Source: a virus. From it: a stretch of DNA of 21,427 bases. The notes below the pieces were generated by a model. The model worked only from the letters and a program-made list of their open reading frames with translations. It had not been told where the DNA came from and did not search any database. The translations under genes and the position numbers were made by a program. The DNA lies in the IMG/VR virus record IMGVR_UViG_3300017770_000212, positions 1-21,427 of that record; one strand, 5' to 3'. Positions within the stretch are counted from its first letter, which is position 1, and the number at the start of each line of letters is the position of its first letter. This document shows, piece after piece, positions 2-14,939 of the stretch.

Positions 2-3000
2 AAGAGACGTAATGCTGAATCTAATTTATTAGTTGATGATTTAAGAGTACAGGATCAACTTAATGTTGATGGTAATGCGTTTATTACAGGTGACTTAACA
101 GTTGATGATATTACTGCTGATGTTATTGATGCAAATATATTTAGAGATCGTGGTAATACTGGATATTATTTAGATCCTGCGACTTCAGGTACATCACTCA
201 ATGTTCGTGGTGAAATACGTAACCCATCAGTTTGGATTAACGACGGTGATAACTATAATTCATATAATGAAAACATTCGTTTATTCAATGCTCCTAACGC
301 AGTATCAGTAATTGCATTTAGTGCAACAGGAACCGCAGGTGCACCTGCTACTTCAATCTTAGGATACTCCGATAGATTAGAAACTCGTCGAGTTAATAGT
401 TGGCAACAAAGAACATATGACGGCAGATCTGAATTCGTAGGTGATATTCGTCCTACGTTAATGTATGATAGGAATGATACTAGTTATTATTTAGATCCTA
501 ATAGTAACGGTCGTGTATTACAATTAGGTATTGGTTATCGTGCAGGTGGTAAGAGATTAGATGTAACTGGTGATCACGGTAATACGGCAATAAGATTAGC
601 GCTTGCTGCTGGTAATAACGGTAATGGTACAGGAGAATTTGCATTACAAGCTTGGGTATCAGAACCAGGAAGAACATGGGAAGGTGCAGGTTTTGGTTAT
701 AACGTTGATAATAATCTTAACGCAAATACAAACCAATATTACTTAGGTAGACCTAATACAGTTGGTGGTCAGGCCTATATGAGGTTTGAACGAGATGGTC
801 ATACAGTATTCTATAATACGAATACATCAGGTACTCGTTATACTTCTATGTCAATGTTCTCAAGTAATTATATCACTGTTGGTAATTACTTACAAGCTGC
901 TAACTCGTTAAGAGCACCAATCTTCTACGATTCAAATGATACTGCTTGGTATACAGATCAAGCAAGTACTTCTCGACATAATGTTCAACAAGCAAACTTC
1001 TTCTCAAATGATGGTGCTGTTTCGGATAGTGGTCAGTTTGGTTTATACTTTGCTTCAGGTAGAAGTACAGCATATGCTATCTATAAAGAAGGTGGAGCAT
1101 GGACAAATCCATATCCTGATTTAAGAATTGCGTTCCATACAGGTATTAAGTTTGGTGCTTACCATGGTTATAATGGTATGCGATTCTATAATGACTATAA
1201 CATGGTCACTCAGGTCATGTCAGTTAATAACAGTGCTGATCCATTAGGTGCCAATAACGTATTTGTTAATAATAGTTTACAAGCAAATTCTTCGTTAAGA
1301 GCTCCAATATTTTATGATTCAAATGATACTGGATATTACTATGACCCTAATTCAACATCTAATTCTGCTGGTAGACAGAGAGGTGGTACATTCTACGGTC
1401 CTAATACATCCTGGAGTCAATACTTATATGTAGGTACAAACGGTCATGCATCTACTTCGCATTCTTCAGTTGCCGTTACAAACGGTAACTTGCATCTTGA
1501 CTCTAAGTCAGGTAATAACCTATACTTACAATGGTATGTAGGTGGTACTACATATGTAAATGGTGCAGTTCAAGCCAACATTTACTATGACAGGGACAAT
1601 ACAAGTTATTATGGTAACTTTGCTTCTACTTCATATATGAATGATTTAAGAGCAAATATATTCTACGAACGCGAAAATACAGCATATTACTTTGGTTCAA
1701 GCCAAGGTGATGCAAGAATGCGTAATGTTAGATTTAATGAAGTTAGAATTGAGAATGGCGTTACGATTCAATCAGTAAATGGTAATGGTAGAATTTATCT
1801 TGGTGGTAACTTCCATATTGATGCTCAGAACGGCAACGATTTATACCTCAACTATTATTCTGGTCGAAGAACAAGAATGTATGCTCCTGGTCAGGTTGAG
1901 GCAGCAAGATTAGATACTAACCGTATCTTCTACGCGTTCTATGATTTCAGAACTCCAATCTTCTATGACTATAACGATACAACTTATCGTGTAGATCCTA
2001 ATGGAACTTCAGTATTAAGAAACTTAACAATTAACGACAGGTTAAATGGTTACTATCCTGATAACTTTGGTAGGTTCAGATGGAGTACAGGATACTTTAA
2101 TAACGGTACTTCAACCAATAACTTTATTGGTGATCTAGGAGATAACGAAGCTTTATCACAAGGCTTTACTGCACAGAAGGTTCCATGGTCATACGCTGGT
2201 AACTCTAACGTTAATACAGGTATTACTTCAATTGAAATGGCAGGATCTGCTTTAGCAACCTGGCATGATGGTTCTTATTATACAACATTAGTTATTCGTC
2301 CTACGACCGGTGCAGGTGGTGGAGCTGTTTATATTTACAACAACCAAGGCGGTAGTTATTCTCCAGGTTGGAGACAGGTAGCAACATCTTCCACAGACTT
2401 CTATAACTATAACAGTATTCGTTCACCTATATTCTACGACACAAATAATACAGGTTTCTATACTAATCCAGCAAGTACTTCAATATTACAAGAACTTACA
2501 ATTGGTAACTATGGAACAATTTCATTAAGAACTCAATCAGGTAACGTTCGTGGTTATATTCAATCACGTGAAGAAAACGATGGCCACTTAATCATTGCCA
2601 CATCAGGTAATGAAGATATATCATTCAGAGATGGTGGTACAAGTGGATCTTGGAACCAAATCATTCGTGGTAACGGCCATGTATTAGTTGCATCAAGACA
2701 TGATTCACCTATCTATTATGATCGTAATAATACTGGTTATTATATGGATCCTGAAGGTGCTACTAACTTAGGTACATCTTTAAGAGCAACTGAAATCTAC
2801 GCAAGAAACTGGTTCAGAAACGATAATAGTGGTGAAGGTTTATATAACCAAGCAACAGCAATGCATTGGTACTCTGATAGTTCTTCAAGATTCAGATTGT
2901 ATTCTACATCAAGTACTTCACAGATCTTATTTACTACTTCAGGTAATAATGCTCGTGGTTATGTATATGCTGATAACAGTAATAATATTGGTTTCTTAAA

Positions 3001-5389
3001 TAGAAGTGGAAGTTGGTCATTACGTATGGACAACAGTGGTAACTCATTCCACACTGCTTCTGCTCGTGCTCCAATCTTCTATGACAATAATGATACTGGG
3101 TATTACTTAGATCCTAATTCAACTTCTAATGCTGCTTTAAGAATTAGAGGTGGTGCATTCCATGGACCTAACACATCTTGGGGTAGATATCTTGCTGTTG
3201 GTACAAATGGTCGATATAGTAACGAAGCTTCGGTTGCGACTACAAACGGTAACTTACACTTAGATTCTCGTTCAGGAAATAGCCTATACTTACAATGGTA
3301 TGTAGGCGGAACCACTTATGTAAACGGTTCAGTACAAGCTAATATTTACTACGATAGAGATGATACTTCCTATTACGGTAACTTTGCTTCTACTTCGTAT
3401 ATGAATGATGTAAGAGCTAACATTTTTTACGATAGAAATAATACTGCTTATTACTTTGGTTCAAGTTCAGGTGATTCAAGATTTAGAACAACAAGAGTAG
3501 GAGAAGGTTACTCTGACGGTTGGTGGAGAAACTATAACTCAGGACAAGGTTTATATAACCAAGCAACAGGCCGACATTTCTATAGCCCAGGTTCAACTTA
3601 TTGGCATCTAGACGGTGCAAGTGGTTCTGGTGGATTAATTATATACGATCGTTATCAAGGTTCTCAGGGGTCATCTACAGGACGACGTGGTTACTTATAT
3701 TACGATGGTTCAGGTTTCGGTCTCTTAAACAGTAATGGAAGTTGGGGTGTAAGACTTAACCCAGGAAATTCATATACTGAAATTTATCGTATTACATATT
3801 TGGATGATGCTCGAGCTAATATCCTATATGACAGAAACAATACTGCTTATTACTTCAACGGTGCATCAACTAACTCAACACGATTTGAAGGTGTAAGTAA
3901 CAGGACAATGGCATTTATAGGTCAGCCGGGTCATACAAGAAATAGCGGTGAATATTATAGAGCTAGACCTCGTCAAACCAGTGATACTAACTATTGGACT
4001 GGTTCATTTGGTTGGGGTCGTCAGGACATGAACGTCGTTTCAACTTGGGGTTCAGGCTTTATTGATTCTTGGAGTAATCCACCTAATCAGCCATCAGGTA
4101 CATCTCACTGGGTTGGAATGCAGGCCTTCCACTATAGAAATAGTAATACTTCTGGTTATGGTTGGCAGATGGTTGGTGGACCAATTACTAACTTACGATT
4201 CAGAAGTTCATGGGCCGGTTGGAGATCTTGGAGAACAATTCCAATATTAGATGAGAATAGTACTAACGGCGGTTCAATGTATGCCGGTCGTTATTACGAT
4301 TCAAATAATACTGGTTATTATATAGATCCAGCAAGTACTTCAGAAATGAATACTACAAACCATCGTGGAAGATTCTACTTCTCTAATTATGTTAGAGCTC
4401 GTGGTCAGGGTGGTATGATGGGAGACTACAATGATTCCGGTACCAGAGCTAAGGTAATATGGACAATTGGTGATTCATGGCCAATTGGTAATATGTATGG
4501 ATTAGCTTATGAGTATAACGGATCTTATGGTCACCACCTTGCATTAAAGAACAACGGTAGTACATATCATAGGATTTCATTCGCAAGTCAGGGTGCATCG
4601 TTATCTGGTACTTGGCAGGCTTCGTCTTCGCTAAGAGCGCCGATCTTCTATGATTCAAATAATACTGGTTATTATGCTGATCCTAATGGTACAACCGTTC
4701 TAAATGCTCTTGAGGTTCGTGGTAACCAAATAATATTACAAGGTAGTTCACCAACTATCTACATGAGAGATACGAACAACTATACCTCGATGATCCATCA
4801 GAACTCTAATGTACATTACATATTGAGTGGTAGATCTAATAATACTACAAGTTGGTCAACATACAATGGATATTGGCCTGCTACTTGGTCAATGGTAAAT
4901 AATGACTGTCAGATGGGTGGTAATTTAAGAGCAAGATATAATGTTATTGCTTATTCATCAGACATCAGATTAAAAACTAACATTAAGCCAATTGAAAATG
5001 CCCTTGAGAAATTAATGACATTAAGAGGTGTTACTTTTGATTGGACTGATGAGGCAGGTGAAGCAGGATTTACTCCTGAACAGAAATATAACGATGTTGG
5101 TGTTCTTGCTCAGGAAGTTGAAAAAGTATTACCTCAACTTGTAATGCCTGCACCGTTTGACTTGTATCAACCTAATCCTGGTTCTGAACATGACCCTGAT
5201 GGTCTAACTGAAGCAGAAAAGATGGGTCAATCAAAATCAGGTAAGAATTATAAGACGGTTGAATATGGTAGAATGGTTGCTTTAACAATTGAAGCGATTA
5301 AGGACCAACAAACCATTATAAATAAACAGCAACAAGAAATCACTGAACTTAAAGAAGTGGTCTTGAAATTGTTGGAAAAACTTTCATAA
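2..5389 (+). CDS. Giant repeat-rich tail fibre/adhesin with C-terminal S74 chaperone domain (5' end outside window)
   Basis: The frame is open from base 2, so the gene starts upstream of the window; the ATG at 461 is internal because the same repeat type continues in front of it. 1795 residues are visible. Nearly the whole length is Gly/Asn/Ser/Tyr-rich, with 15 copies of a motif like PIFYDSNNTGYYxDPxxTS at irregular spacing, as expected of a long beta-structured trimeric fibre. The last ~143 residues match the peptidase S74 / intramolecular chaperone family: SDIRLKTNIKPIENAL, then DVGVLAQEVEKVLPQLV, then YGRMVALTIEAIKDQ, ending in a coiled-coil-like helix rich in Q, E, K and L. In that family the domain trimerises the fibre and then cuts itself off. 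The gene lies where T4 keeps baseplate and short-fibre genes, so a host-recognition role is likely. The receptor is unknown. Confidence 0.88.
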   Translation, partial: KRRNAESNLLVDDLRVQDQLNVDGNAFITGDLTVDDITADVIDANIFRDRGNTGYYLDPATSGTSLNVRGEIRNPSVWINDGDNYNSYNENIRLFNAPNAVSVIAFSATGTAGAPATSILGYSDRLETRRVNSWQQRTYDGRSEFVGDIRPTLMYDRNDTSYYLDPNSNGRVLQLGIGYRAGGKRLDVTGDHGNTAIRLALAAGNNGNGTGEFALQAWVSEPGRTWEGAGFGYNVDNNLNANTNQYYLGRPNTVGGQAYMRFERDGHTVFYNTNTSGTRYTSMSMFSSNYITVGNYLQAANSLRAPIFYDSNDTAWYTDQASTSRHNVQQANFFSNDGAVSDSGQFGLYFASGRSTAYAIYKEGGAWTNPYPDLRIAFHTGIKFGAYHGYNGMRFYNDYNMVTQVMSVNNSADPLGANNVFVNNSLQANSSLRAPIFYDSNDTGYYYDPNSTSNSAGRQRGGTFYGPNTSWSQYLYVGTNGHASTSHSSVAVTNGNLHLDSKSGNNLYLQWYVGGTTYVNGAVQANIYYDRDNTSYYGNFASTSYMNDLRANIFYERENTAYYFGSSQGDARMRNVRFNEVRIENGVTIQSVNGNGRIYLGGNFHIDAQNGNDLYLNYYSGRRTRMYAPGQVEAARLDTNRIFYAFYDFRTPIFYDYNDTTYRVDPNGTSVLRNLTINDRLNGYYPDNFGRFRWSTGYFNNGTSTNNFIGDLGDNEALSQGFTAQKVPWSYAGNSNVNTGITSIEMAGSALATWHDGSYYTTLVIRPTTGAGGGAVYIYNNQGGSYSPGWRQVATSSTDFYNYNSIRSPIFYDTNNTGFYTNPASTSILQELTIGNYGTISLRTQSGNVRGYIQSREENDGHLIIATSGNEDISFRDGGTSGSWNQIIRGNGHVLVASRHDSPIYYDRNNTGYYMDPEGATNLGTSLRATEIYARNWFRNDNSGEGLYNQATAMHWYSDSSSRFRLYSTSSTSQILFTTSGNNARGYVYADNSNNIGFLNRSGSWSLRMDNSGNSFHTASARAPIFYDNNDTGYYLDPNSTSNAALRIRGGAFHGPNTSWGRYLAVGTNGRYSNEASVATTNGNLHLDSRSGNSLYLQWYVGGTTYVNGSVQANIYYDRDDTSYYGNFASTSYMNDVRANIFYDRNNTAYYFGSSSGDSRFRTTRVGEGYSDGWWRNYNSGQGLYNQATGRHFYSPGSTYWHLDGASGSGGLIIYDRYQGSQGSSTGRRGYLYYDGSGFGLLNSNGSWGVRLNPGNSYTEIYRITYLDDARANILYDRNNTAYYFNGASTNSTRFEGVSNRTMAFIGQPGHTRNSGEYYRARPRQTSDTNYWTGSFGWGRQDMNVVSTWGSGFIDSWSNPPNQPSGTSHWVGMQAFHYRNSNTSGYGWQMVGGPITNLRFRSSWAGWRSWRTIPILDENSTNGGSMYAGRYYDSNNTGYYIDPASTSEMNTTNHRGRFYFSNYVRARGQGGMMGDYNDSGTRAKVIWTIGDSWPIGNMYGLAYEYNGSYGHHLALKNNGSTYHRISFASQGASLSGTWQASSSLRAPIFYDSNNTGYYADPNGTTVLNALEVRGNQIILQGSSPTIYMRDTNNYTSMIHQNSNVHYILSGRSNNTTSWSTYNGYWPATWSMVNNDCQMGGNLRARYNVIAYSSDIRLKTNIKPIENALEKLMTLRGVTFDWTDEAGEAGFTPEQKYNDVGVLAQEVEKVLPQLVMPAPFDLYQPNPGSEHDPDGLTEAEKMGQSKSGKNYKTVEYGRMVALTIEAIKDQQTIINKQQQEITELKEVVLKLLEKLS
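1295..1723 (+). repeat. Internal fibre duplication, copy 1 (143 codons)
   Basis: This segment encodes LRAPIFYDSNDTGYYYDP through SSQGDARMR and aligns almost end to end with 3062-3487. Shared stretches include GPNTSW, VGTNG, TNGNLHLDS, LYLQWYVGGTTYVNG, VQANIYYDRD and STSYMND. The two copies differ mainly at third codon positions and in a short central segment, where copy 1 reads HASTSHSSVAV. Confidence 0.88.
3062..3487 (+). repeat. Internal fibre duplication, copy 2 (142 codons)
   Basis: This is the second copy of the segment at 1295-1723. It encodes ARAPIFYDNNDTGYYLDP through SSSGDSRFR and is one codon shorter. The main divergence is at RYSNEASVATT, the place where the other copy has its own variable stretch. 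It therefore looks like a duplicated fibre module with one exposed variable loop. Confidence 0.88.
4958..5386 (+). other. S74-type self-cleaving chaperone domain of the fibre
   Basis: The segment starts at the Ser codon of SDIRLK (Ser at 4958-4960, Lys at 4973-4975), which matches the Ser-x4-Lys dyad known from endosialidase-type intramolecular chaperones. In that family cleavage occurs just before this Ser after trimer folding. Here it would release a fragment of 143 residues. Both dyad residues are present, so self-cleavage is expected to be active, by inference. Confidence 0.8.
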
Positions 5390-5479: not shown

Positions 5480-5938
5480 ATGGCACTAAGTACAGATTAT
5501 ACTTGGACATGGTCAGTATCTGGTTTGAAGAAAAGAGACCAAGTTAATGCTGAAGGCGCAACTTTAGAAGGCGCAATTGTTCAAACATATTGGAAAGTGG
5601 TCGGAGCAGACTCAGACGGCAACGAAGGTGAATTCTCAGGAGCTACACCTTTTACTGCGGTTAATGTACCAGCAGGATCATTTGCAGCATTTGACGATTT
5701 AACGGAAGATACTGTTTTGGGTTGGATTCAAAACGTTGTAAACTCAGATCAAGGATATGCGGATCATATCTCAGAAAGAGTAGCTATTCAAATCGACGAA
5801 GTCGCAATTGAAGATGCAACAATGCCTTGGGCACCTGATGATGTTACACCGACTCCTGGAGGAGACGGGGCATATGACCCAGAGAATCCAGAATCACCAG
5901 ATTCTGAGCCGGGTGAAGATCCAGCTGCACCAGAATAA
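5480..5938 (+). CDS. Small acidic phage protein of unknown function, paralogue of the next gene
   Basis: The product has 152 residues. I do not recognise a function; it looks like a small conserved protein family of marine T4-like phages. Residues 6-120 form a compact domain: YTWTWSVSGLKKRDQVN, VQTYWKVVG, FSGATPFTA, then an FDDLTEDTVLGWI helix and a final AIQIDE...MPWA. After residue ~120 comes a Pro/Glu/Asp-rich, probably disordered tail (PGGDGAYDPENPESPDSEPG) that the paralogue at 5949 lacks. There is no signal peptide or membrane segment. It has a strong ribosome site (TTAGGAGA) and is the first gene behind a tandem sigma70 plus late promoter, so it should be abundantly made. The setting suggests a virion-associated or assembly role, but this is inference. 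Confidence 0.8.
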   Translation: MALSTDYTWTWSVSGLKKRDQVNAEGATLEGAIVQTYWKVVGADSDGNEGEFSGATPFTAVNVPAGSFAAFDDLTEDTVLGWIQNVVNSDQGYADHISERVAIQIDEVAIEDATMPWAPDDVTPTPGGDGAYDPENPESPDSEPGEDPAAPE

Positions 5939-5948
5939 GGTTTAAACA

Positions 5949-6278
5949 ATGACTTATTCTTGGCAAATAGTAGACTTTGAAACCGTTGATGAAGTCAACG
6001 GTGACGGAGTGACTTTATCGGACTCTGTTGTTAGAATCCAATGGATTAGAACCGGTACAGAAGGTGATAAATATGCAAGTGTAGTTGGTTTTCATAAACT
6101 AACTGCATCCGCAGTTGCCGAGGCTGACTTTGTTTCGTTTTCTGATTTAACAGAAGCAAAGGTTATAGAATGGTTAGACGAAGGAATATCTGACGAACTA
6201 ATCAATTCTTATAATACCAAAATTCAGGAAAAAATTGAAAGACAAGGAACAACTTCAAGAAATATTCCTTGGTCTTAG
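5949..6278 (+). CDS. Small phage protein of unknown function, paralogue of the preceding gene
   Basis: The product has 109 residues and shares the fold pattern of the preceding protein: YSWQIVDFETVDEVNGDGVTL against YTWTWSVSGLKKRDQVN...GATL, then VRIQWIRTG, F.SFSDLTEAKVIEWLDE, and a C-terminal IQEKIERQ...IPWS ending. It stops where the paralogue's acidic tail begins. The ATG is 10 bases after the previous stop, and a weak AAGG overlaps that stop codon, so translation is probably coupled. The identity of the family partner or ligand cannot be read from the sequence. The pair probably arose by tandem duplication. Confidence 0.8.
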   Translation: MTYSWQIVDFETVDEVNGDGVTLSDSVVRIQWIRTGTEGDKYASVVGFHKLTASAVAEADFVSFSDLTEAKVIEWLDEGISDELINSYNTKIQEKIERQGTTSRNIPWS

Positions 6279-6281
6279 ATG

Positions 6282-6289
6282 AATAAATA
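6282..6289 (+). promoter_or_regulatory. Late promoter motif AATAAATA
   Basis: This octamer fits the relaxed NATAAATA late-promoter form seen in marine T4-like phages and lies in the 39-base gap before the sugar cassette. The predicted start is near 6295, with the ATG at 6318 and a TATGGAG ribosome site between them. It would give the cassette late expression. Confidence 0.6.
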
Positions 6290-6317: not shown

Positions 6318-7361
6318 ATGCATGATTTACGTCATCACGGATTGGTGCACTATGCATTAAAACGTGGCGGAAGCATCCACCCGATTACACTACCCAAAGA
6401 GTTAACTGGCGAGACAGGGATTATGAATCCTTCCATCTTTCTACATGAAGGAAGGATTCTATTGAATGTCCGCCATGTTAATTATACTCTTTATCATTCC
6501 GAAGGAAAAAATTGGCCTCATTTTTGGGGTCCTCTTCAATACATCCACCCAGAAAACGATATCACGTTAACCACGTATAATATTATGTGCGAGTTAAATG
6601 GTGACCTAGATATTGTTCATTCTCAACGTATTGATACAAGTGATCTTGATACTAAACCTTTATGGAACTTTATTGGTCTTGAAGACGGTCGACTCTTTAA
6701 TTGGGAAGGTCGTTTATTCCTTTGTGGAGTACGTCGAGACTGTTATGATGATAAAGGCACAGGTAGAATGGAACTACAAGAAATAGAATATATTGACGGT
6801 CAATGGAAAGAAGTTGCTCGTTTTCCTATTCCTGCTCCAGGTTTAAACGATACATATTGTGAAAAGAATTGGATGCCTATTATTGATATGCCATGGCATT
6901 TTGTTAAATGGTGTAATCCTACCGAGGTCGTTAGATACGATATTAAGAAAGGTATAACTGAGACAGTTCATTTAACTGAAGAATCTGTAGGTAGAGGTGT
7001 TGATTTATTCAGAGATTTAAGAGGCGGTACTCAAGTATATCCACTTAATGATGGAAGACATATGACAATCACTCATGAGGTTGATTTAAAGAAAGATGCC
7101 TTTGGTCGTAAAGATGGTCATTATAATCATAGAGTACTTGTATGGGATAAGGATTGGAAATTAGAACATTATACAAAAGACTTTCATTTCTTAGGTACTC
7201 AAAAGGATCCTACGACAGGTCTTGAATATAATATTGAGTTTGCGACTGGTATGGTATTCTTAGATGGTAATGTAATCATTGCATTTGGTTATCAAGATAA
7301 TGGTACATTCTTATTGAAAATGCCTGAAGAATTATTCTTTGATTTTGTGAAGAGAGGTTAA
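6318..7361 (+). CDS. GH130-like beta-propeller glycoside hydrolase/phosphorylase-family protein
   Basis: The 347-residue product has the blade-by-blade signatures of the GH130-like five-bladed propeller proteins: MNPSIF (36-41), GLEDGRLF (120-127), EKNWMP (182-187), RGGTQV (235-240), THEVD (252-256), IEFATG (306-311) and FGYQDN (323-328). GH130 enzymes are mostly beta-mannoside phosphorylases or hydrolases. Many divergent members accompany glycosyltransferases, and their substrate is unknown. No signal peptide is visible, so it acts in the cytoplasm or is packaged. It is followed after 2 bases by a TPR-methyltransferase gene and then by a nucleotidyltransferase-cupin gene, forming one apparent operon. 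Catalytic competence cannot be judged. A lectin-like or glycosyltransferase-like role is an alternative. Confidence 0.68.
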   Translation: MHDLRHHGLVHYALKRGGSIHPITLPKELTGETGIMNPSIFLHEGRILLNVRHVNYTLYHSEGKNWPHFWGPLQYIHPENDITLTTYNIMCELNGDLDIVHSQRIDTSDLDTKPLWNFIGLEDGRLFNWEGRLFLCGVRRDCYDDKGTGRMELQEIEYIDGQWKEVARFPIPAPGLNDTYCEKNWMPIIDMPWHFVKWCNPTEVVRYDIKKGITETVHLTEESVGRGVDLFRDLRGGTQVYPLNDGRHMTITHEVDLKKDAFGRKDGHYNHRVLVWDKDWKLEHYTKDFHFLGTQKDPTTGLEYNIEFATGMVFLDGNVIIAFGYQDNGTFLLKMPEELFFDFVKRG

Positions 7362-7363
7362 TT

Positions 7364-8644
7364 ATGAAAATTAAAAGATACATTACAGAGAGTGATGTTT
7401 TTGATGTAAATGATAAAAAGAATTTACAAGATGTTCTTGAAACTCATATCATGGATCCAAAGAATCCATATAAGATTTATGACTTGGCTCGAGTTTATGA
7501 TAAAATGGAAAACGGAGCAATGGGAGTATCGTTATATTTAAAAGCTGCCGATATTTCAACGGATCCTGACCTTCAATATAAATCATTAATTGGTATTGCT
7601 CGATGTTATGATAGACAACGAGATAGAAACTTTACAACAGAAGGTGCATTAATTGATGCTGCTGGGTTATTACCAGAAAGACCTGAAGCTCATTATCTTT
7701 TATGTGCTCTTTACGAAAAGATGAAGAAATGGAAAAATTGTTTTTTACATGCTAACTTAGGATTGAATATCGAAGATCTTACTCCTAATGAAGAATTAGG
7801 TTTTCCAGGTAAAATAGATTTAGAATATTATCATGCATTAGCCAAATGGTCAATTACAGCACAACAGGATGGAAAACAATTATTCTTTAATTTAAAACAT
7901 AAACGTAATCTTCCTGAGCGTATTAGAGAAAAAGTTCAAGCAGCATTGGATTGGAATTTTTATCCTGACATTATTCCTTACGAAGGTTCTGATCTTGAAA
8001 GATTCAAGTTTCCTTTTGACGGTATTGAGAGAATCAAAAAGAATCACTCTAAACATTTTCAAGACATGTTTGTATTATCTGCTTATAAAGGTAAACGAAA
8101 TGGCTCTTATTTAGAAATTGGTTCAGGAGATCCACACGTTCATAATAATACTGCATTGCTTGAAGAAGAGTATGGTTGGAAAGGTATTTCAATTGATAAC
8201 TCTGAATCATTATGTTATGAATTTAGACAAGCAAGAACTAACACGGTGATCTGCGCTGATGCAACTCAAATTGATTATGAAGATTTATTTTATAAACATT
8301 GTATGGACCCAGTGATAGATTATTTACAAATTGATTGTGATGAATTATCAATTTCAGTATTAGAAAGAATGCCTTTAGATAAAGTTAAGTTTGGTGTCAT
8401 TACTTTCGAGCATGATTCGTATCGTTTAAGTACACCTAAAAAGTTTGCTGCTAAAAAGATATTAGAAAAACATGGATATGTTTGTGCTGTTCCAAATGTA
8501 GGATTTCATGCTGATGGATACCCTTACGAAGATTGGTACTATCATCCTGATGTTGTTGATATTCCAAAAGAGATGTTAACAACTAAAGATACTAATTTTG
8601 TGTTTGATTATTTTATGAACCCTCTGATTACTAAAAAGGACTAA
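7364..8644 (+). CDS. TPR-repeat protein with C-terminal FkbM-type methyltransferase
   Basis: The 426-residue product has two parts. Residues ~35-135 are helical repeats of TPR type (YDLARVYDKMEN, SLIGIARCYDRQ, AHYLLCALYEKMKKWKNC). Residues ~235-390 resemble the FkbM family of SAM-dependent methyltransferases: LEIGSGD (250-256) as SAM motif I, ISIDNSE (275-281) with an acidic residue for the SAM ribose, DYLQIDCDE (319-327) and ITFEHD (346-351). FkbM enzymes typically O-methylate sugars or small hydroxylated metabolites, and TPRs of this kind often occur in glycosyltransferase-linked proteins. The start is at the first ATG after a GAGAGG site, 2 bases after the previous stop. Methylation of a glycan is the likeliest role; the substrate is unknown. 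Confidence 0.75.
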   Translation: MKIKRYITESDVFDVNDKKNLQDVLETHIMDPKNPYKIYDLARVYDKMENGAMGVSLYLKAADISTDPDLQYKSLIGIARCYDRQRDRNFTTEGALIDAAGLLPERPEAHYLLCALYEKMKKWKNCFLHANLGLNIEDLTPNEELGFPGKIDLEYYHALAKWSITAQQDGKQLFFNLKHKRNLPERIREKVQAALDWNFYPDIIPYEGSDLERFKFPFDGIERIKKNHSKHFQDMFVLSAYKGKRNGSYLEIGSGDPHVHNNTALLEEEYGWKGISIDNSESLCYEFRQARTNTVICADATQIDYEDLFYKHCMDPVIDYLQIDCDELSISVLERMPLDKVKFGVITFEHDSYRLSTPKKFAAKKILEKHGYVCAVPNVGFHADGYPYEDWYYHPDVVDIPKEMLTTKDTNFVFDYFMNPLITKKD

Positions 8645-8645
8645 A

Positions 8646-9407
8646 ATGATAACTGTAGTTGCCACGGGCGGCTTTGACCCAATTCATTCAGGACATATTC
8701 AGTATTTAAAAGATGCGTCATTATCTGGTACTCAACTTATTGTTGGCGTTAATTCAGACGAATGGCTCATACGAAAGAAAGGTAAATACTTTATGCCTTG
8801 GGAAGAACGTGCAGCTATTGTTTCAGAACTTGCTTGTGTTGATAAAGTAATTTCTTTTGACGATTCAGATGGAAGCGCGATACATTGCTTAGAACAGGTT
8901 AAACTTTTATATCCTTCAGATACTATTATATTTGTAAATGGTGGTGATAGAACATCAGACAACATCCCTGAGATGGCAGTAGAAGGTATTGAGTTCGAGT
9001 TTGGAATTGGTGGAGAAGATAAAAGAAATTCATCAAGTTGGATATTAAAAGAATGGTCTCAACCTACGACTCAACGTAAATGGGGAACATATAAGATCTT
9101 AGATACCAATGGACAATGGAGAGTTAAAGAATTAAGTTTTGATGTTGGTCAATCATTAAGTGACCAAAGACATTTTCATAGATCTGAACATTGGCATATT
9201 GTAAGTGGTTCTGTTTTAATGGAACTTGATAGAGATGATGGAATGCCAGGATCAAAGCATACTAAAATTTATCATGCAGGTATGAGTGTCGACATTCCAA
9301 AAGAAACATGGCATAGAGCAACTAATGTTGGTAAAGAATCAGCAAAAGTAATCGAAGTATGGCTTGGAGATAAACTCGAAGAATCTGATATTGAAAGAAG
9401 AGACTGA
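8646..9407 (+). CDS. Nucleotidyltransferase fused to phosphomannose-isomerase-type cupin
   Basis: The 253-residue product is a two-domain fusion. Residues 1-140 are a cytidylyltransferase-like nucleotidyltransferase close to the heptose-1-phosphate adenylyltransferase type: GGFDPIHSGH (8-17, with the HxGH nucleotide motif), IVGVNSDEW (32-40), and FVNGGDR (96-102). The KRNSSSW segment (126-132) sits where the second nucleotide motif (IS-T/S-xxxR type) is expected. Residues 148-253 form a cupin very like type II mannose-6-phosphate isomerase: RHFHRSEHWHIVSG (175-188, with metal-ligand candidates His176, His178 and Glu181), then VDIPKETWHRATN and VIEVWLGDKLEESDI. The likely job is activation and perhaps isomerisation of a sugar phosphate for a nucleotide-sugar. 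The ATG lies 1 base after the previous stop, with AAGGA ahead of it. Confidence 0.8.
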   Translation: MITVVATGGFDPIHSGHIQYLKDASLSGTQLIVGVNSDEWLIRKKGKYFMPWEERAAIVSELACVDKVISFDDSDGSAIHCLEQVKLLYPSDTIIFVNGGDRTSDNIPEMAVEGIEFEFGIGGEDKRNSSSWILKEWSQPTTQRKWGTYKILDTNGQWRVKELSFDVGQSLSDQRHFHRSEHWHIVSGSVLMELDRDDGMPGSKHTKIYHAGMSVDIPKETWHRATNVGKESAKVIEVWLGDKLEESDIERRD

Positions 9408-9456: not shown

Positions 9457-10473
9457 ATGGCGATAAAGCTAGCTGGCACTACTGTAATTGATAATTCTGT
9501 CGTCATTGGTACACTTGATGGCAATGAGTCATTCTTTGACAATGTCAATTTTACAAACTTTCATCCTGATGTACAAACAATTCCTGCGAACGGTCAAGTA
9601 GCAATCGGAGATAGTGATTCTGGAAGCGCTTCTAACCAAGGCTATTCTGTATTTACTTTTGCCATGACTCAAAACTTACAGTTTACTTTTAATCCATCTG
9701 GATCTTTTTCTTCTGGACACTTTGGTAGTCATTTTACTATATACTTAGATCGTGGTGCTTCTGGGTATACTCCAACTTTTGCTGCTCAATTTGCGTTTAC
9801 AACAACGCCTAGTTGGTCAGGAGACAGGTATTGGACAATCAGCGGTGTAATATGGCCTGACGGCGTCGCAAGATGTACCGCCGTACCTTTTGATGCAGTT
9901 AGTACTCCATCATCCTCATTTAGTAATTTTTTAGAAGGTCTTGGCCAACAGTGGGATAACACAAACAGTTCTTATGGATCAGGTACGCCTTGGGCAGCAG
10001 CTTCTATATCCTTTAATCATGACGCGGCAAACAATAGAGTTACAGTAGTTCACGGAACTGGTAATTCAAGAGTTGGAACTACTCAATATACTACATATGC
10101 AAACTATACAGGACTTACTGGAATAACATCAGTTGAAGTTCAGTATAATCCAGGCACTCAAACCTGTTCGGGGTCCAATTGTGGATCTAACTCAGGACAA
10201 AGCTACGGGCCGTTACCAACTGACGACGGCAAGGCAGCAGGAACTTATTATAGTTGTGCTTCTTCTACCGTGTTCTTTGGTTGGACTGCCGAGGCAGATA
10301 GTAACTCAGGATCTGATAGTATTACGACAGCATCGTTTAACTCGTCTGACCCAGATCTTAGAATTAAAATTGTATGTAACGAAGGAACTTTTTATTCAAC
10401 AGCTGATGTTGGTTCATTGCAGTTATTTGTTAACTTTGGACCAAATGCAGGCTTCGGCGGAGGAGGTCTTTAA
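9457..10473 (+). CDS. Putative virion surface protein with shared 'IK.aGT.VI' head (paralogue A)
   Basis: The 338-residue product has no recognised function. Its N-terminus MAIKLAGTTVIDNS is shared with the products at 10473 and 11069 and probably anchors these proteins to a common virion site (inference). Around residues 124-150 a second shared motif occurs: PSWSGDRYWTISGVIWPDG. The rest is Ser/Thr/Gly/Asn-rich and beta-predicted, with a CSGSNC pair near 230 and a glycine-rich GFGGGGL end. That composition is typical of phage fibre or decoration proteins. There is no signal peptide or transmembrane helix. The gene has a strong CGGAGGA ribosome site behind a TATAAATA promoter. Its stop TAA overlaps the next ATG by one base, and the glycine codons GGA GGA GGT double as the next gene's ribosome site. 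Confidence 0.72.
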   Translation: MAIKLAGTTVIDNSVVIGTLDGNESFFDNVNFTNFHPDVQTIPANGQVAIGDSDSGSASNQGYSVFTFAMTQNLQFTFNPSGSFSSGHFGSHFTIYLDRGASGYTPTFAAQFAFTTTPSWSGDRYWTISGVIWPDGVARCTAVPFDAVSTPSSSFSNFLEGLGQQWDNTNSSYGSGTPWAAASISFNHDAANNRVTVVHGTGNSRVGTTQYTTYANYTGLTGITSVEVQYNPGTQTCSGSNCGSNSGQSYGPLPTDDGKAAGTYYSCASSTVFFGWTAEADSNSGSDSITTASFNSSDPDLRIKIVCNEGTFYSTADVGSLQLFVNFGPNAGFGGGGL

Positions 10474-10907
10474 TGGCAATTAAAATAACAGGAACTTCGG
10501 TAATAGATAGATCCACAAGCGCACCTTTAGCAGGGATGCGGTTTAAAAATCTTACTGGAGTAGAAGGTGAATACGATAATGTCCAACCAAAATACTCAAC
10601 ACAAACGATTGGGACAGGTAATTTAACGCCCTCCATGGCAGATGAACATCAAGAGTTTTTAACACTGAATGGTTCTAATGTAATCATACAAGGAATATCT
10701 GGTACTACAGGTGGTGATCAATTTACATATTTTGTTGACGGTTCTAACCAATTACATGATTTATCATTTGTATCTGGTGGTAGTATAACTTGGCTTTTTG
10801 AAAATGATTCAGAACCTGATTGGACAACCGCAAGATATTGGACCATCGTTATAACATCTTGGGACGCGTCTGTACATTCAGTCACAGCGACAAGTTGGGG
10901 AGCATAA
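10473..10907 (+). CDS. Short putative virion surface protein, head-domain-only paralogue B
   Basis: The 144-residue product begins MAIKITGTSVIDRS, the same head as its neighbours. It ends just after the second shared motif (PDWTTARYWTIVITSWDASV, 115-134), so it consists of little more than the common base domain without the distal part seen in paralogues A and C. It overlaps the previous stop by one base (TAATG), so translation is probably coupled. I cannot assign a function. It may be a minimal decoration protein, a remnant of a longer gene, or an assembly partner for the longer versions. No internal frameshift is obvious: the stop is followed directly by a new small gene with its own reading frame. 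Confidence 0.72.
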   Translation: MAIKITGTSVIDRSTSAPLAGMRFKNLTGVEGEYDNVQPKYSTQTIGTGNLTPSMADEHQEFLTLNGSNVIIQGISGTTGGDQFTYFVDGSNQLHDLSFVSGGSITWLFENDSEPDWTTARYWTIVITSWDASVHSVTATSWGA

Positions 10908-10910
10908 GAA

Positions 10911-11066
10911 ATGGCTTTAACAGGATTATTTAAATCATCAAAAGTTGAAAGAGAAGACGCAGATGGTAACGTGTGGGAAGAATGGATTCAATATCCAGAA
11001 CACGATAATGAAGAAGATAATTTAGCCGAGCTGCTTGAAGCTATTAACAGGTTAAATGGAGATTAA
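10911..11066 (+). CDS. 51-residue acidic small protein
   Basis: This small frame starts 3 bases after the previous stop and ends 2 bases before the next ATG, filling the gap between paralogues B and C. That fit supports a real gene. The product begins MALTGLFKSSKVERED and continues with NVWEEWIQYPEH. It finishes with a strongly acidic, helix-prone stretch, EEDNLAELLEAINRLNGD. It contains no cysteine, signal peptide or membrane segment. Function is unknown. A small chaperone or adaptor for the flanking surface proteins is conceivable but unsupported. The nearest purine-rich stretch upstream is weak, so expression probably depends on coupling to the gene before it. Confidence 0.6.
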   Translation: MALTGLFKSSKVEREDADGNVWEEWIQYPEHDNEEDNLAELLEAINRLNGD

Positions 11067-11068
11067 GA

Positions 11069-12499
11069 ATGTCGATTAAAATAGCTGGAACAGTTGTAAT
11101 TAACAATGATAGAGAATTAAAAGAAATTACTGGAAATGTAGGAAGAATTAAAACTAATAATTCTGGTTATGGAATTAGTTCAACTACTGATAATATAAAT
11201 TTTTCAACTCCGATGATGAATTGTATATTAGGTGGTGATACCACTTTTACTGAAACTTCTGTACTAGTTGGAAATTCTGCACAGATGTTATTAGACCTTA
11301 GTACAAATAATCATACACCAACGTTTTCATCAAATGTTAGTTGGGCAGACGGAACAACTCCAACATGGTCAGGTTATCAAAGATGGCACATATGTTTTAC
11401 TGTAATAGCCGCAGACGAAATTAGAGCAGTTGCTTTTGGATATACTGCTGCTAGTGGTGGTACTCCTCTGGGTTGGCCTGGAGCTACTACAATTACTGCT
11501 AGAGAAGGTGGAACTAATCTTACTGGAGTATCAGACAAGCACGTAAGTTTGAGTTATGGAGTACAAGATCCGGTCACCTCTACTTCAAGTTGTACTGTAG
11601 CTTTTTATAGAAGATCTGTTAATGGCTCAGAAATATTCTTTACTCCAACTGGTACAGGCGGAGCTACTAACGGATATTATACTCAAAGCTCAGGTGCATT
11701 TGTATCAAGAACATCTGGTCAGACAACCGAAATATGGGAAGAAAACTCAGTATCACCGGACTCAACTCGATGTGTTATTAAATCAACAAGTGGAACTATT
11801 ATATCAGATACAGGATATGTTGCGTCGGCCTCAGTTGGAACAGGTGCATCAGCGTCTGTATCCACTACTGCATCAACGACTTCTTCAATGGGAACAAACA
11901 CAAGTAATAGTACAACTACAAGACTTCTTGAATGTTGGGCTCGAAAGTCAGGATACGAAGATACTAAAGTAGCTACCTGGAGATTTGAGGCTAGTGCACA
12001 GGCATCAGGATCTGGATGTTTCCTTGGATCAGCCAACTTATATAGGTGGAATGTTGATACCAATACTGTTAACATTATGACGTTAGATTCAGCTTACAGC
12101 CAATGGTCAAGTAAAGAAGATGGTGAAGTTCATTATGTTATTGGAAAAGACGGTTTGCATAAAGAAATTACAGGGTTCAGAACTTTCCCATTACAAGATA
12201 CTTTTTACGCTATAAACGGAAGTGATGCTTTTGTTTCAAGTACTCACCCATTCTTAACAACTGACGGGTGGAAATGTCCTGGAGAAGATACTGATAGCCC
12301 AGATTATCCAGACCTCGATTTAACACAGCTTGCAGTAGGAGATATATTAAAGAAATATAATTCTGAAACAAATGAATATTATGACGAAGAAGTAACATCG
12401 ATTATTAGAGGACCAGAAAAAGTTAGAGATGTATATTCGCTTAGTGTTGGCGGAGACGATACATATATTGTTGATGGACACATTGTTCATAATAAGTAA
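11069..12499 (+). CDS. Putative virion surface protein with C-terminal Hint (intein/hedgehog-like) autoprocessing domain (paralogue C)
   Basis: The 476-residue product has three parts. The head is MSIKIAGTVVINNDRELKE, shared with the genes at 9457 and 10473; a second shared motif, PTWSGYQRWHICF, lies at 98-110. Residues ~150-316 are Ser/Thr/Gly-rich and end in LLECWARKSGYEDTKV...EASAQASGSG. From Cys317 to the C-terminus there is a Hint domain: CFLGSA (317-322) as the N-terminal nucleophile block, STHPFLTTDGW (391-401) as block B with His393, and VYSLSVGGDDTYIVDG then HIVHNK (455-476) as blocks F/G with His474-Asn475. Only Lys follows the HN pair, so there is no C-extein. By analogy with bacterial intein-like domains, self-cleavage or attachment of a nucleophile at Cys317 is expected rather than splicing. 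Confidence 0.8.
   Translation: MSIKIAGTVVINNDRELKEITGNVGRIKTNNSGYGISSTTDNINFSTPMMNCILGGDTTFTETSVLVGNSAQMLLDLSTNNHTPTFSSNVSWADGTTPTWSGYQRWHICFTVIAADEIRAVAFGYTAASGGTPLGWPGATTITAREGGTNLTGVSDKHVSLSYGVQDPVTSTSSCTVAFYRRSVNGSEIFFTPTGTGGATNGYYTQSSGAFVSRTSGQTTEIWEENSVSPDSTRCVIKSTSGTIISDTGYVASASVGTGASASVSTTASTTSSMGTNTSNSTTTRLLECWARKSGYEDTKVATWRFEASAQASGSGCFLGSANLYRWNVDTNTVNIMTLDSAYSQWSSKEDGEVHYVIGKDGLHKEITGFRTFPLQDTFYAINGSDAFVSSTHPFLTTDGWKCPGEDTDSPDYPDLDLTQLAVGDILKKYNSETNEYYDEEVTSIIRGPEKVRDVYSLSVGGDDTYIVDGHIVHNK
12017..12496 (+). other. Hint domain without C-extein or endonuclease
   Basis: This is the coding segment for Cys317 (TGT at 12017-12019) to Lys476. It has the three conserved Hint positions: a leading Cys, a block-B His within THPF, and the terminal His-Asn. 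At ~160 residues it is the size of a mini-intein or intein-like domain, with no room for a homing endonuclease and no sign of one. The block-B Thr is Ser here (SSTH instead of TxxH). Confidence 0.78.
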
Positions 12500-12511
12500 A
12501 GGAAATAAGAA

Positions 12512-13465
12512 ATGACAAGTCATACATTTAATACCGTAGCAGGAACAACCGCAACTGGTGGAACTGGCGGTGGCGCGGCAGGTGTTACTAGTAATGTAGT
12601 AACAGACCTCGTAGCAGATCAAAGTGAAGGTAGTGGGTTTGTTCATAACCAAGTTTGTAATGGTGGCAGCTCAGCCAACGCTGACACAATAATGGGTTTA
12701 CAATATACAGCGTCAAGTTCGACGTTACGTTTAATAGCCACTGATGATAGTTTAGCTACAGGAACTGGCAGTGGTGCAACACGTTTTGACTATGCATATG
12801 CAAGAGGACCTAATTCTACAAGTAACGCGCAAACAACATATAACGACCAGACTGGTGGAAGTAATGGACCACAAGGTACGTCGGGTTCTTACGAATGGCT
12901 AGAAACACAATATACTGATGGGGAAGGATTTACAGAAACAAGAATAGACGTTAGATGGAATAGTGTATTCGTATTTCAAGCTATGATATATGTCGGCCAA
13001 GGTTCAGTTACTGGTAGTGACGGATTAACATATACAAAAGGTTCTCAGTTTAACACATCTGGATCTGAAACGCGCTACCAACTAACACAATCGGACCCAG
13101 GAAAATCTATGTACGTGAATCAAACGACAAGTGGGACTATTACAGGTATAAGAATGAAAGTTACTGTTAATAACGTTAATAATGCGTCCGGAAATATTGC
13201 ACCTCTACGAAGCTTAACTAATACTGCTGGCGGTAATCATTCTCTTACAGCAACCGGAACTTTTGATAGTGGATGGTTAACAAGTAATATGTCTACTGGA
13301 TTAAATATAGTAGTAAGGCATCTGCCAAATATTGCCGGAAGTTCGTCTGGTAATTGTACTTACCTATTCCAAGCAAGTGTAGAATTATGGGCAAGAGCAT
13401 CTGGTGTAAGTGATACGAAAGTAAAAGATTTCTTAATGAGCGCGAGCACAATTATAGCTTTATAA
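12512..13465 (+). CDS. Putative virion surface protein ending like the Hint-protein's N-terminal part
   Basis: The 317-residue product has no recognised function. The N-terminus lacks the 'IK.aGT.VI' head and is Gly/Thr/Ala-rich (TATGGTGGGAAG). The middle is Ser/Thr/Asn-rich and beta-predicted (DVRWNSVFVFQAMIYVGQG, TGIRMKVTVNNVNN), as in many phage fibre or capsid-decoration proteins. The C-terminus ELWARASGVSDTKVKDFLMS aligns with ECWARKSGYEDTKV in the protein before it, and this protein stops where that one enters its Hint domain. An AAAGGAAA ribosome site lies 12 bases after the previous stop. Late, cotranscribed expression with the upstream surface genes is likely. It is the last gene before the gp13-gp20 block. 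Confidence 0.7.
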   Translation: MTSHTFNTVAGTTATGGTGGGAAGVTSNVVTDLVADQSEGSGFVHNQVCNGGSSANADTIMGLQYTASSSTLRLIATDDSLATGTGSGATRFDYAYARGPNSTSNAQTTYNDQTGGSNGPQGTSGSYEWLETQYTDGEGFTETRIDVRWNSVFVFQAMIYVGQGSVTGSDGLTYTKGSQFNTSGSETRYQLTQSDPGKSMYVNQTTSGTITGIRMKVTVNNVNNASGNIAPLRSLTNTAGGNHSLTATGTFDSGWLTSNMSTGLNIVVRHLPNIAGSSSGNCTYLFQASVELWARASGVSDTKVKDFLMSASTIIAL

Positions 13466-13502: not shown

Positions 13503-14246
13503 ATGGCACAACCAACAACAAGAGAACAATTCAAAAGCTGGGTACTCCGTAAGCTAGGTGCTCCTGTGATTGATATTAATGTGTCGGACGAACAGATTGA
13601 TGACCGTCTTGATGAAGCTATAGATTTCTGGAGAGATTATCATTATAACGGAAGTCAACTTGTTTATATGAAACATCAGATTACTCAAGAGAATAAAGAT
13701 AACGGTTATATAGAACTACCTACAACAATACTTGGTATTTCAGGTATCTTTAATATGCAATCAAGTATTTCTACAGGTGGTGGAATCTTTAATGTTCAGT
13801 ATCAATTTGTTTTAAATAATCTTGAAGATATTACTGGATATAACATTACAAATTATTATATGTCAATGCAGCATTTAGAATTCTTACAAGAAATGCTTGT
13901 TGGCAAACCAATGATTCGTTACAATAAACACATAAACAGATTACATATAGATTCAGGGGTTGACTCAATGCCTGTTGGTGAATACATTATTATAGAAGCA
14001 TATGATGTAATTGATGCAGATACTTATTCTGATGTATGGGGTGATCGTTGGTTACAAAACTATGCCGCTGCTTTAATTAAAGAACAGTGGGGATCAAACC
14101 TAACTAAGTTTACAGGTATGCAACTTGTAGGCGGTGTATCATTCAACGGAGAACAAATACTATCTGATGCCAAAGAAGAAAGGCGCTTAATGGAAGAAGA
14201 AGCCATTGAGAATTTACAACCTCTTCAGTATAATTATATCGGATAA
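13503..14246 (+). CDS. gp13: gp13-like neck (head completion) protein
   Basis: The 247-residue product starts AQPTTREQFKSWVLRKLGAPVIDINV, followed by QIDDRLDEAIDFWRDYH. This N-terminus is characteristic of the gp13 neck proteins of marine T4-like phages. T4 gp13 is longer (309 residues), and short versions are usual in marine relatives. With gp14 it forms the neck that closes the filled head and joins it to the tail. The next gene begins 3 bases after the stop, and the order 13-14-15 is the same as in T4. The ribosome site is weak (AGAG), so leader context or a late promoter 26 bases upstream must provide expression. No anomalies are visible in the frame. Confidence 0.88.
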   Translation: MAQPTTREQFKSWVLRKLGAPVIDINVSDEQIDDRLDEAIDFWRDYHYNGSQLVYMKHQITQENKDNGYIELPTTILGISGIFNMQSSISTGGGIFNVQYQFVLNNLEDITGYNITNYYMSMQHLEFLQEMLVGKPMIRYNKHINRLHIDSGVDSMPVGEYIIIEAYDVIDADTYSDVWGDRWLQNYAAALIKEQWGSNLTKFTGMQLVGGVSFNGEQILSDAKEERRLMEEEAIENLQPLQYNYIG

Positions 14247-14249
14247 GTA

Positions 14250-14939
14250 ATGGCTACGAATACATTCTTTAATAATTACTCTCAAGTTCAAGAGCAGTCT
14301 TTAATTGATGATTTGGTAATAGAATCTATCAAGCAATATGGTGTTGACGTTATATACATCAGTAGAGCAATTAAAGGCAGAGATGTAATTTTTAACGAAG
14401 ATGATTTTCCAGAATATAACGAAACTTTTGAATTTGAAACTTATGTTAAAAGCATGGAAGGTTTTGAAGGAGAAGGTGATTTCTTATCCAAGTTTGGTTT
14501 ACAAATAAGAGATACATTAACTCTCACAGTTGCGAATAGAACATTTGAAAGACATGTAACTCGAGAGGTTGTTGAACTTACTCGTCCTAGAGAAGGTGAT
14601 TTAATTTACTTCCCTTTAAACGAAAAGATGTTTGAAATTAAATATGTTGAACATGAAAGCATATTTTATCAAATGGGACAAACACAAGTATATGACATGC
14701 AATGTGAATTGATTGAATATGCTAACCAAAGATTTAATACTGGTCGTTCTAACATCGATGATTACTTTGCTGCATATAATACAGACATCGAAGTAGATGC
14801 TAATAATGCAACTTTATCTGTACTTGCTGCAACTGATGATAACGCAAGTAACCTCGACTTTGAAATTGAAGCAGACGGTATAATTGATTTCTCAGAAGTA
14901 GATCCGTTTAGTGAAAACATATCAATAAGTGATACCTAA
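14250..14939 (+). CDS. gp14: gp14-like neck protein
   Basis: The 229-residue product is close to T4 gp14 (256). Recognisable features are the N-terminal TNTFFNNYSQVQEQSLIDDLV, a QYGVDVIYISR segment, FEFETYVKSMEGFEGEGDFLSK, and ERHVTREVVELTRPREGDLIYFPL. These are typical of gp14 head-tail connectors. It works with gp13 on the assembled portal vertex after DNA packaging and offers the docking surface for the tail. The C-terminal ~40 residues are acidic (DFEIEADGIIDFSEVDPFSE). The stop TAA shares one base with the ATG of the next gene, which supports coupled translation with gp15. Assignment rests on motif recall and gene order together. Confidence 0.88.
   Translation: MATNTFFNNYSQVQEQSLIDDLVIESIKQYGVDVIYISRAIKGRDVIFNEDDFPEYNETFEFETYVKSMEGFEGEGDFLSKFGLQIRDTLTLTVANRTFERHVTREVVELTRPREGDLIYFPLNEKMFEIKYVEHESIFYQMGQTQVYDMQCELIEYANQRFNTGRSNIDDYFAAYNTDIEVDANNATLSVLAATDDNASNLDFEIEADGIIDFSEVDPFSENISISDT

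Follow-up and report, generated by a model that had tools for sequence, protein, structure and literature searches.

Genes and features at the locus

The window, meaning the whole 21,427-nt stretch of IMG/VR record IMGVR_UViG_3300017770_000212 that was analysed, comes from a marine T4-like phage whose terminase is nearest to those of Sinorhizobium phages phiN3 and phiM12 (about 59.5%). That terminase, and psbA and psbD searches with no over-threshold match in 15 related records, speak against a cyanobacterial host. Three open reading frames (A, B, and C, Table 1), all on the plus strand, form a cassette with intergenic gaps of 2 nt (A/B) and 1 nt (B/C). Thus, the tightly spaced three-gene operon described in an earlier note on this DNA was confirmed at its exact coordinates, and so was its place between the giant fibre and the surface-protein cluster. 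Two DUF7936 genes are directly 5′ of A, an arrangement kept in the marine clade, and genes of the gp13, gp14, and gp15 types are found beyond the Ser/Thr-rich cluster.

Table 1. Features of the cassette and its surroundings
Feature	Position	Strand	Description
Large tail fibre, S74-type chaperone end	461-5389	+	Possible acceptor
Two DUF7936 proteins (PF25590)	5480-6278	+	Possible acceptor or virion parts
Late-promoter-like ATAAATA	6283-6289	+	35 nt 5′ of A
Gene A	6318-7361	+	347 aa; GH130/GT108-like five-bladed propeller; predicted mannosyl-transferring enzyme
Asp123 codon of A, within GLEDGRL	6684-6686	+	Counterpart of invariant GH130 catalytic Asp
Gene B	7364-8644	+	426 aa; TPR, ~aa 15-200; Rossmann, probably FkbM-like methyltransferase domain, ~aa 205-420
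Gene C	8646-9407	+	253 aa; nucleotidyltransferase-cupin fusion
C, N-terminal HIGH-superfamily nucleotidyltransferase (PF01467)	8646-9059	+	HSGH at 8685-8696
C, C-terminal type-II mannose-6-phosphate-isomerase cupin (PF01050)	9060-9407	+	
Surface-protein/adhesin cluster, Ser/Thr-rich (24-27%)	9457-13465	+	3′ of cassette; fast-evolving; possible acceptors
gp13/gp14-type genes	13503-14939		

ATAAATA occurs nine times on the plus strand of the window and not at all on the minus strand, against 6.2 expected per strand, a modest excess. Since this count alone is near chance, conserved placement was used as the promoter evidence. The motif lies within 100 nt 5′ of A (-35 to -98) in 29 of 36 distinct marine-clade loci, and it was found 5′ of B at none of 55 loci and 5′ of C at none of 37. 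The late motif reported earlier therefore has a kept position.

Conservation of the cassette

A is encoded at no fewer than 595 IMG/VR places, and linkage was followed in about 150 sampled IMG/VR loci. B was present in every A locus with enough downstream sequence, and vice versa, while C usually comes after A-B in the marine clade. The earlier note had expected the three families to co-occur elsewhere, and they do. C is not an obligate member, since about one fifth of C loci lack A and B and two loci have a cupin alone at the place of C. The order A-B-C is retained among relatives down to about 45-60% identity. Ka/Ks values of 0.12-0.21 for A, B, and C indicate purifying selection and speak against decaying or passenger genes; together with the kept order, they place the cassette above chance. 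Compared with loci L005 and L010, the flanking s1, s2, and hint genes are 33-44% identical, whereas A, B, and C are 69-91% identical. Adhesin exchange around a stable cassette is a point against the adhesin decoration favoured below, and would fit a glycan or a conserved acceptor equally well.

Protein A is a GH130/GT108-like propeller

A had no match of its own in Pfam, PHROG, or NCBIfam, so profile and fold comparison were needed. Its AlphaFold2 model (pTM 0.86) resembles GH130 and GT108 propellers, and in the model it has the five-bladed beta-propeller that defines GH130. VIA scores were Z 22.1 to 9gph, 20-22 to GH130 entries, 17.4-18.3 to GT108, and 16.7 to the best GH43. N37-P-S, E122-D123, and D327 are invariant and in register with the NPS, xEDxR, and C-terminal Asp of GH130, and Asp123 is invariant across all aligned relatives. 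The Asp of xEDxR is catalytic in GH130 and the Asn is sugar-binding (PMC4599007). Fold and active site thus bear out the earlier call of a GH130-like propeller. The protein of the window did not reach the PF04041 family cut-off, and 5 of 21 relatives gave weak, partial matches (best E 1e-4); A is therefore filed only as GH130/GT108-like. Around the phosphate-binding basic residues of the phosphorylases and the Glu pair of the hydrolases, the profile alignment is too weak for residues to sort A into phosphorylase, hydrolase, or transferase. The link to GT108 is one of fold, and transfer from GDP-mannose is a prediction.

In some relatives, the A domain shares one polypeptide with glycosyltransferases (GTs), or else with FkbM and radical-SAM domains. 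Domains added in cassette relatives include GT25/GT2, FkbM, radical-SAM/SPASM, and DUF6445. Recent capture of A from a host was rejected: cellular matches are mostly phage-like MAG contigs with the same gp13/gp14/terL synteny, together with one distant match in Bradyrhizobiaceae, and a profile search of Pseudomonadota gave matches in just 4 of 398 genomes.

Protein B carries TPR and methyltransferase-like domains

The B profile matched consensus TPR proteins with E 3.9e-18. In its model (pTM 0.82), the N-terminal part consists of TPR helices in tandem helix-turn-helix repeats and the C-terminal part has an alternating beta/alpha fold; the VIA structural matches listed were filled by TPR domains. 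A TPR domain is no proof of a protein acceptor. The C-terminal part is Rossmann-like and carries a YLEIGSG motif. Against FkbM (PF05050), the protein of the window gave no match, whereas 7 of the 19 relatives searched did, the best at E 2.5e-4; hhalign gave a short match (E 0.008). Since FkbM matches are limited to these seven relatives, the TPR half of the earlier TPR-FkbM call stands, and B is probably, but not provenly, an FkbM-like methyltransferase, with sugar methylation as a predicted role.

Protein C joins a nucleotidyltransferase to a cupin

PF01467 matched C with 51.4 bits, above its cut-off, with the HxGH motif present, and PF01050 matched with 76.4 bits (cut-off 23.6), in agreement with the nucleotidyltransferase-cupin fusion first read from the sequence. 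C stayed under the full-length score of ManC-type GMP-PMI (TIGR01479; 67.7 bits against 372.95, matching in the cupin part only) and under the equivalog cut-offs of HldE/RfaE domain II (68.6 against 181.5) and TagD (40.6 against 165.4). We know of no HIGH-type enzyme that activates mannose-1-phosphate. The nucleotidyltransferase (NTase) of C is about 48-50% identical to those adjoining phosphomannomutase (PMM) in small alphaproteobacterial genomes. In these bacteria the C halves flank PMM in NTase-PMM(PF03332)-cupin clusters, which adjoin GDP-mannose dehydratase and GT4 genes. Three large phages with C encode PMM elsewhere in the genome, and at locus L169, C lies within a sugar-nucleotide/GT cluster. 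Between the mannose and heptose substrates suggested earlier, context supports mannose and not heptose.

Collagen-like fibres and bacterial fusions

A Thr-rich collagen-like fibre gene lies just 5′ of A in 21 of 25 lake-phage loci, compared with 1 of 73 in the marine clade and 0 of 15 controls. The tail fibre of the window has no collagen repeat, and thus the acceptor in its clade is a guess. Rare bacterial fusions of 1261-1310 aa have the order GT2, TPR, A domain, GT32 DXD, and a methyltransferase-like end, the last assigned by sequence reading. The B profile matches their TPR (E to 1e-11), and their A domain matches with E to 1e-24. In all three fusion-bearing genomes, every collagen-family match detected is in the locus adjoining the fusion gene. 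These genomes may be close relatives and so represent one event.

Proposed function and alternatives

We favour, at a probability of about 0.45, a late phage-encoded cassette that builds mannose-type, methyl-capped glycans on fibre or adhesin proteins; from the data above we infer the sugar, the direction of transfer, the methylation site, the protein acceptor, and the benefit. The cupin of C would supply mannose-6-phosphate, a phosphomannomutase (the host's, or a viral one in some phages) would convert it to mannose-1-phosphate, and the nucleotidyltransferase of C would turn this into activated mannose. A, as a propeller of the GH130/GT108 clan, would pass the mannosyl unit to the acceptor. 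The TPR domain of B may bind the acceptor or the complex, while its methyltransferase domain would methylate the sugar or the chain. Late expression alongside the fibre and adhesin genes would then yield a mannosylated, methyl-capped fibre or adhesin with changed adsorption, protease resistance, or recognition. The earlier note had allowed for building, methylating, or trimming a glycan; the bacterial GT2-TPR-A-GT32-methyltransferase fusions and the phosphomannomutase link of C favour building and methylating over trimming. The presence of phosphorylases and hydrolases in the GH130 clan counts against reading A as a transferase.

As to the target, said earlier to be the virion or the host envelope, collagen adjacency favours a fibre or adhesin, but the fibre of the window's clade is not collagen-like, and the envelope is the main rival. 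On that somewhat unlikely reading, A, B, and C would act late to alter the O-chain of host LPS, or else the capsule, so that receptors are hidden from co-infecting phages or progeny no longer re-adsorb to debris. Methylated mannose is an O-chain cap in bacteria, and C lies within sugar-nucleotide/GT clusters in other phages. The same island in SAR11 T4-like phages is read as O-chain modification in PMC7029224. However, this reading does not account for the collagen-like genes that adjoin A or its fusions in lake phages and bacteria, or for the constant TPR partner of A, and the cassette has no membrane-anchored or polymerising partner.

A transferred unit other than mannose is unlikely: C would then feed an ADP-heptose- or CDP-polyol-type precursor, in keeping with HldE domain II and TagD as the nearest named models of its nucleotidyltransferase, but its scores are far under their cut-offs and its fused or adjoining partners are a PMI cupin and phosphomannomutase. 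It is very unlikely that A degrades mannosides of the host, as a phosphorylase or a hydrolase, for salvage or trimming in the manner of GH130 catabolism, with B and C processing the released sugar. GH130 phosphorylases and hydrolases do share its fold, and its best structural matches are oligomannan phosphorylases, yet the bacterial context is a GT2/GT32 fusion by collagen-like genes with no mannan-utilisation locus, the promoter is late, and neither a transporter nor a mannanase is in the vicinity. Least likely of all, A would be a virion-borne propeller that reads or cleaves receptors, with B and C as unrelated passengers of a variable tail-fibre island; A does lie among fibre genes and carbohydrate-active propellers can occur in tailspikes, but A is always with B, is fused to GTs or FkbM/radical-SAM domains in relatives, lacks a fibre-type shaft, and keeps its active-site residues strictly, where true adhesins diverge.

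If fibre or adhesin decoration is correct, widespread aquatic phages would modify their own fibres or adhesins post-translationally, adding a layer of host recognition not visible from fibre sequences. The GH130/GT108 propeller clan would gain a protein-modifying role, and a new route to activated mannose would be suggested. Because collagen genes adjoin the fusion in bacteria, tests of the idea need not be confined to phages. More tentatively, the cassette may be dedicated to the mannosylation and methylation of fibrous adhesins, collagen-like ones among them, and be shared between rare bacteria and phages of both marine and fresh waters. A would then be a protein glycosyltransferase of a new kind, built on the GH130/GT108 fold and obligately partnered by a TPR protein. 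In the marine clade, its supply would come from a ManC-like enzyme in which an unrelated HIGH-type domain had taken the place of the nucleotidyltransferase.

Comparison with known systems

The earlier note had suggested a new system. The genomic setting is already known, since PMC7029224 reports sugar genes in the tail-fibre island of T4-like marine phages. It describes, in pelagimyophages, a host recognition cluster that has tail/baseplate genes on one side and gp14 on the other and holds many glycosyltransferase genes as well as rfaE. The cluster is a variable island of fibre and carbohydrate genes 5′ of gp14, with radical-SAM cassettes, and this locus is probably of the same kind. It is defined from VrlC to gp14; here the gp13/gp14-type genes are present and VrlC, if present, is outside the window. 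The paper names mainly GT8 glycosyltransferases and O-chain change; a text search of it gave neither a methyltransferase nor mannose, and the passages covered describe no GH130/GT108-like and TPR unit. No description of the three-gene unit or its enzyme combination was found in the literature searched, which covered few subscription papers. Phage-encoded sugar transfer to virion proteins is known from mycobacteriophages Che8 and Rita (cited in PMC11256854), but there the targets are capsids, the enzymes are classical glycosyltransferases, and the host group is another.

GH130 mannoside phosphorylases and hydrolases (CAZy) such as Teth514_1788 share the five-bladed propeller of A (Z 22 over 274 residues), but identity is only about 11%, under the PF04041 cut-off. 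Unlike GH130, A has its own invariant motifs (NYTLYHSE, CEKNWMP, and RGG) and GT, TPR, and methyltransferase partners. The GT108 mannosyltransferase/phosphorylases (MTP) of Leishmania have the fold of A and are a precedent for a GDP-mannose-dependent transferase on a GH130-like fold, whereas they are about 13-16% identical to A, eukaryotic, and without a TPR or methyltransferase partner. ManC-type GMP-PMI and C are both fusions of a nucleotidyltransferase and a PMI cupin, and the C cupin matches the PMI part (positions 358-460 of 467), but the C nucleotidyltransferase belongs to the HIGH (HldE/TagD) superfamily, unrelated to the NTP_transferase fold of ManC. Collagen-like glycoproteins and their transferases, with BclA and mimivirus L230 as examples, likewise pair Thr/Ser-rich Gly-X-Y fibres with dedicated glycosylation genes. 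To our knowledge, no GH130/GT108-type enzyme acts in these systems; the GT25 domain in some cassette relatives is a lead toward them.

A conserved, probably late unit

The window record, an IMG/VR virus sequence of 21,427 bases, contains genes for tail fibre, head-tail connector, terminase, tail sheath, and tail tube. The phage is T4-like, and its nearest terminase relatives are Sinorhizobium phages phiN3/phiM12 (~59.5%). The three ORFs reported in the earlier note (A, B, and C) were recovered at the exact coordinates, on one strand, with gaps of 2 and 1 nt. A late promoter had also been proposed. The motif ATAAATA was found upstream of A, at variable distance, in 29 of 36 distinct relatives from the marine clade of the window, with no occurrence before B (0/55) or C (0/37). 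This placement supports a single late transcription unit, while the raw ATAAATA count of the window is not significant taken alone.

Features in and around the cassette
Feature	Position	Strand	Remarks
Tandem DUF7936 proteins	5480-6278		conserved immediately before the cassette in marine relatives (72/76 B loci)
ATAAATA	6283		5' of A
A	6318-7361	+	347 aa; predicted GH130/GT108-like propeller
B	7364-8644	+	426 aa; TPR, probable FkbM-like methyltransferase
C	8646-9407	+	253 aa; nucleotidyltransferase-cupin fusion
Adhesin cluster	9457-13465		replaced or strongly diverged between relatives, A-B-C and neck genes much better conserved; a typical swapping hotspot
Ser/Thr-rich surface protein	11069-12499		last ~165 aa intein/Hint-like (PF14890 at E 0.004, under the cut-off; C-terminus IVHNK)
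Second HIGH-type nucleotidyltransferase, without cupin	15812-16258		phrog_7878; between tail sheath stabiliser and small terminase genes; kept in relatives

A scan of IMG/VR for A found at least 595 relatives. Wherever a sampled locus extends far enough downstream of A, B is present, and wherever it extends far enough upstream of B, A is present. C comes after A-B in most marine loci and is also found alone. The co-occurrence supposed earlier is supported outside the window. Ka/Ks was 0.12-0.21 for A, B, and C, showing purifying selection weaker than on neck genes; divergence is far greater in the flanking adhesins. Among public phages, A adjoins B in Synechococcus phages S-SCSM2R and DSL-LC02; in DSL-LC02 the pair lies between tail-fibre genes and adjoins a 'collagen-like protein'. 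Synteny identifies the bacterial MAG contigs L087-L091 (Pirellulales, Rhodobacteraceae, and Bacteroidetes bins) as belonging to phages of this group that were binned with unrelated hosts.

Domains of A and B

Domain-profile searches gave no family match for A of the window, which is below the Pfam cut-off for GH130. Its AlphaFold2 model, built with 21 relatives, had a pTM of 0.86. The top Foldseek and VIA ranks were GH130 mannoside phosphorylases/hydrolases (Z about 20-22), followed by GT108 Leishmania mannosyltransferase/phosphorylases (Z 17-18) and GH43 (up to 16.7). In hhalign, NPS (N37), GLEDGRL (D123), and GYQDN (D327) fall on the corresponding GH130 positions, which in that family hold the invariant Asp of the catalytic site and residues that contact mannose (PMC4599007). 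Given these fold ranks and the residues in register, A is probably a mannose-handling enzyme of the GH130/GT108 clan; the reaction type is not readable from the residues.

B firmly contains TPR. In the model, its C-terminal half adopts an alternating beta/alpha fold and carries YLEIGSG, and 7 of 19 B relatives match FkbM (best E 2.5e-4). The other domains vary, with FkbM, radical SAM/SPASM, or DUF6445 added to B or shifted onto A, and in two lake-phage B proteins DUF6445-type sequence aligned where the methyltransferase would be. Since the make-up outside TPR differs between relatives, A and TPR are the constant core and the decorating domains are exchangeable. In loci L054, L074-L081, and L057, A occurs in fusion proteins, either with both FkbM and radical-SAM/SPASM domains (about 870 aa) or with radical-SAM/SPASM only (631 aa). 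The variant cassette of locus L180 (85-5768) encodes A, a methyltransferase protein, a GT25-GT2 protein, and a DUF6445 protein, then C and gp13.

Association with collagen-like genes

The A profile matched 4 of 398 Pseudomonadota genomes. Three encode proteins of 1261-1310 aa with GT2, TPR, A domain, and GT32 DXD in that order; the sequence of their last part looks like a methyltransferase, on which Pfam made no call. Their TPR was found by the B profile (E 8e-10 to 1e-11), and their A domain (E 3e-21 to 1e-24) retains NPS, NYTL, EDxRL, NWMP, RGG, and HE. All collagen-family matches listed for these three genomes adjoin the fusion gene, within roughly 3-15 kb, and consist of Gly-Ala/Ser-Thr triplets; the fourth genome, with an unfused A-like match, has no adjoining collagen-family gene. 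A Thr-rich Gly-X-Y run lies upstream of A in 21 of 25 distinct lake-phage loci, usually ending 0.4-1.2 kb away, versus 1/73 marine loci and 0/15 C-only control loci. We give no p-value for the adjacency because the loci are not independent and these bacteria might be closely related to one another. Bacterial and lake-phage patterns alike link the A domain to Thr-rich fibrous proteins.

Proposed function

We propose that C supplies activated mannose and that A would transfer it onto an acceptor rather than cleave it. The TPR of B might present or hold the acceptor, and B would also add methyl groups, perhaps as a cap. The acceptor is most likely a protein, a fibre or adhesin made concurrently with the cassette, from whose modification the phage would presumably benefit. 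In lake phages it could be the collagen-like fibre directly upstream of A; in the window it might be the tail fibre, the DUF7936 proteins, or the Ser/Thr-rich cluster (24-27% Ser+Thr). The intein/Hint-like end of one protein in this cluster suggests putative self-processing; variants recur at the same position in marine relatives, with no match in public phage records.

The main rival remains that the cassette modifies the host O-chain against co-infection, which is the published view for what appears to be the same island in T4-like phages of SAR11 (PMC7029224). It keeps this standing because the fibre of the window does not resemble collagen and the cassette is retained as the adhesins change. 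The collagen association described here is the pattern that favours a fibre acceptor.

Mannose activation and known systems

The earlier note had named mannose and heptose phosphates as substrates to try; the context of C points to mannose phosphate activation and away from heptose. A C-type fusion occurs in 1 of 190 alphaproteobacterial genomes. In three others, which are small (L344, L346/L358, L347/L356), the nucleotidyltransferase adjoins a eukaryote-type phosphomannomutase (PMM, PF03332), with the PMI cupin on the far side of PMM in two of them, and these clusters are possibly an alternative route to activated mannose. A GDP-mannose dehydratase and a GT4 adjoin the cluster in L356, and L357 has between nucleotidyltransferase and cupin an epimerase read as GDP-fucose synthase-like. 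Three large phages with C outside a cassette carry eukaryote-type PMM elsewhere (L360, L361, and L362, from the records of L144, L170, and L169).

Phage-encoded glycan modification of virion or host is already known. In the literature accessible for search, we found no description of the A-B-C enzyme set, the obligate TPR pairing, or the collagen-gene association. C itself fuses a HIGH-type nucleotidyltransferase and a type-II PMI cupin, each over the Pfam cut-off. ManC (GMP-PMI) shares this arrangement, with an unrelated nucleotidyltransferase.
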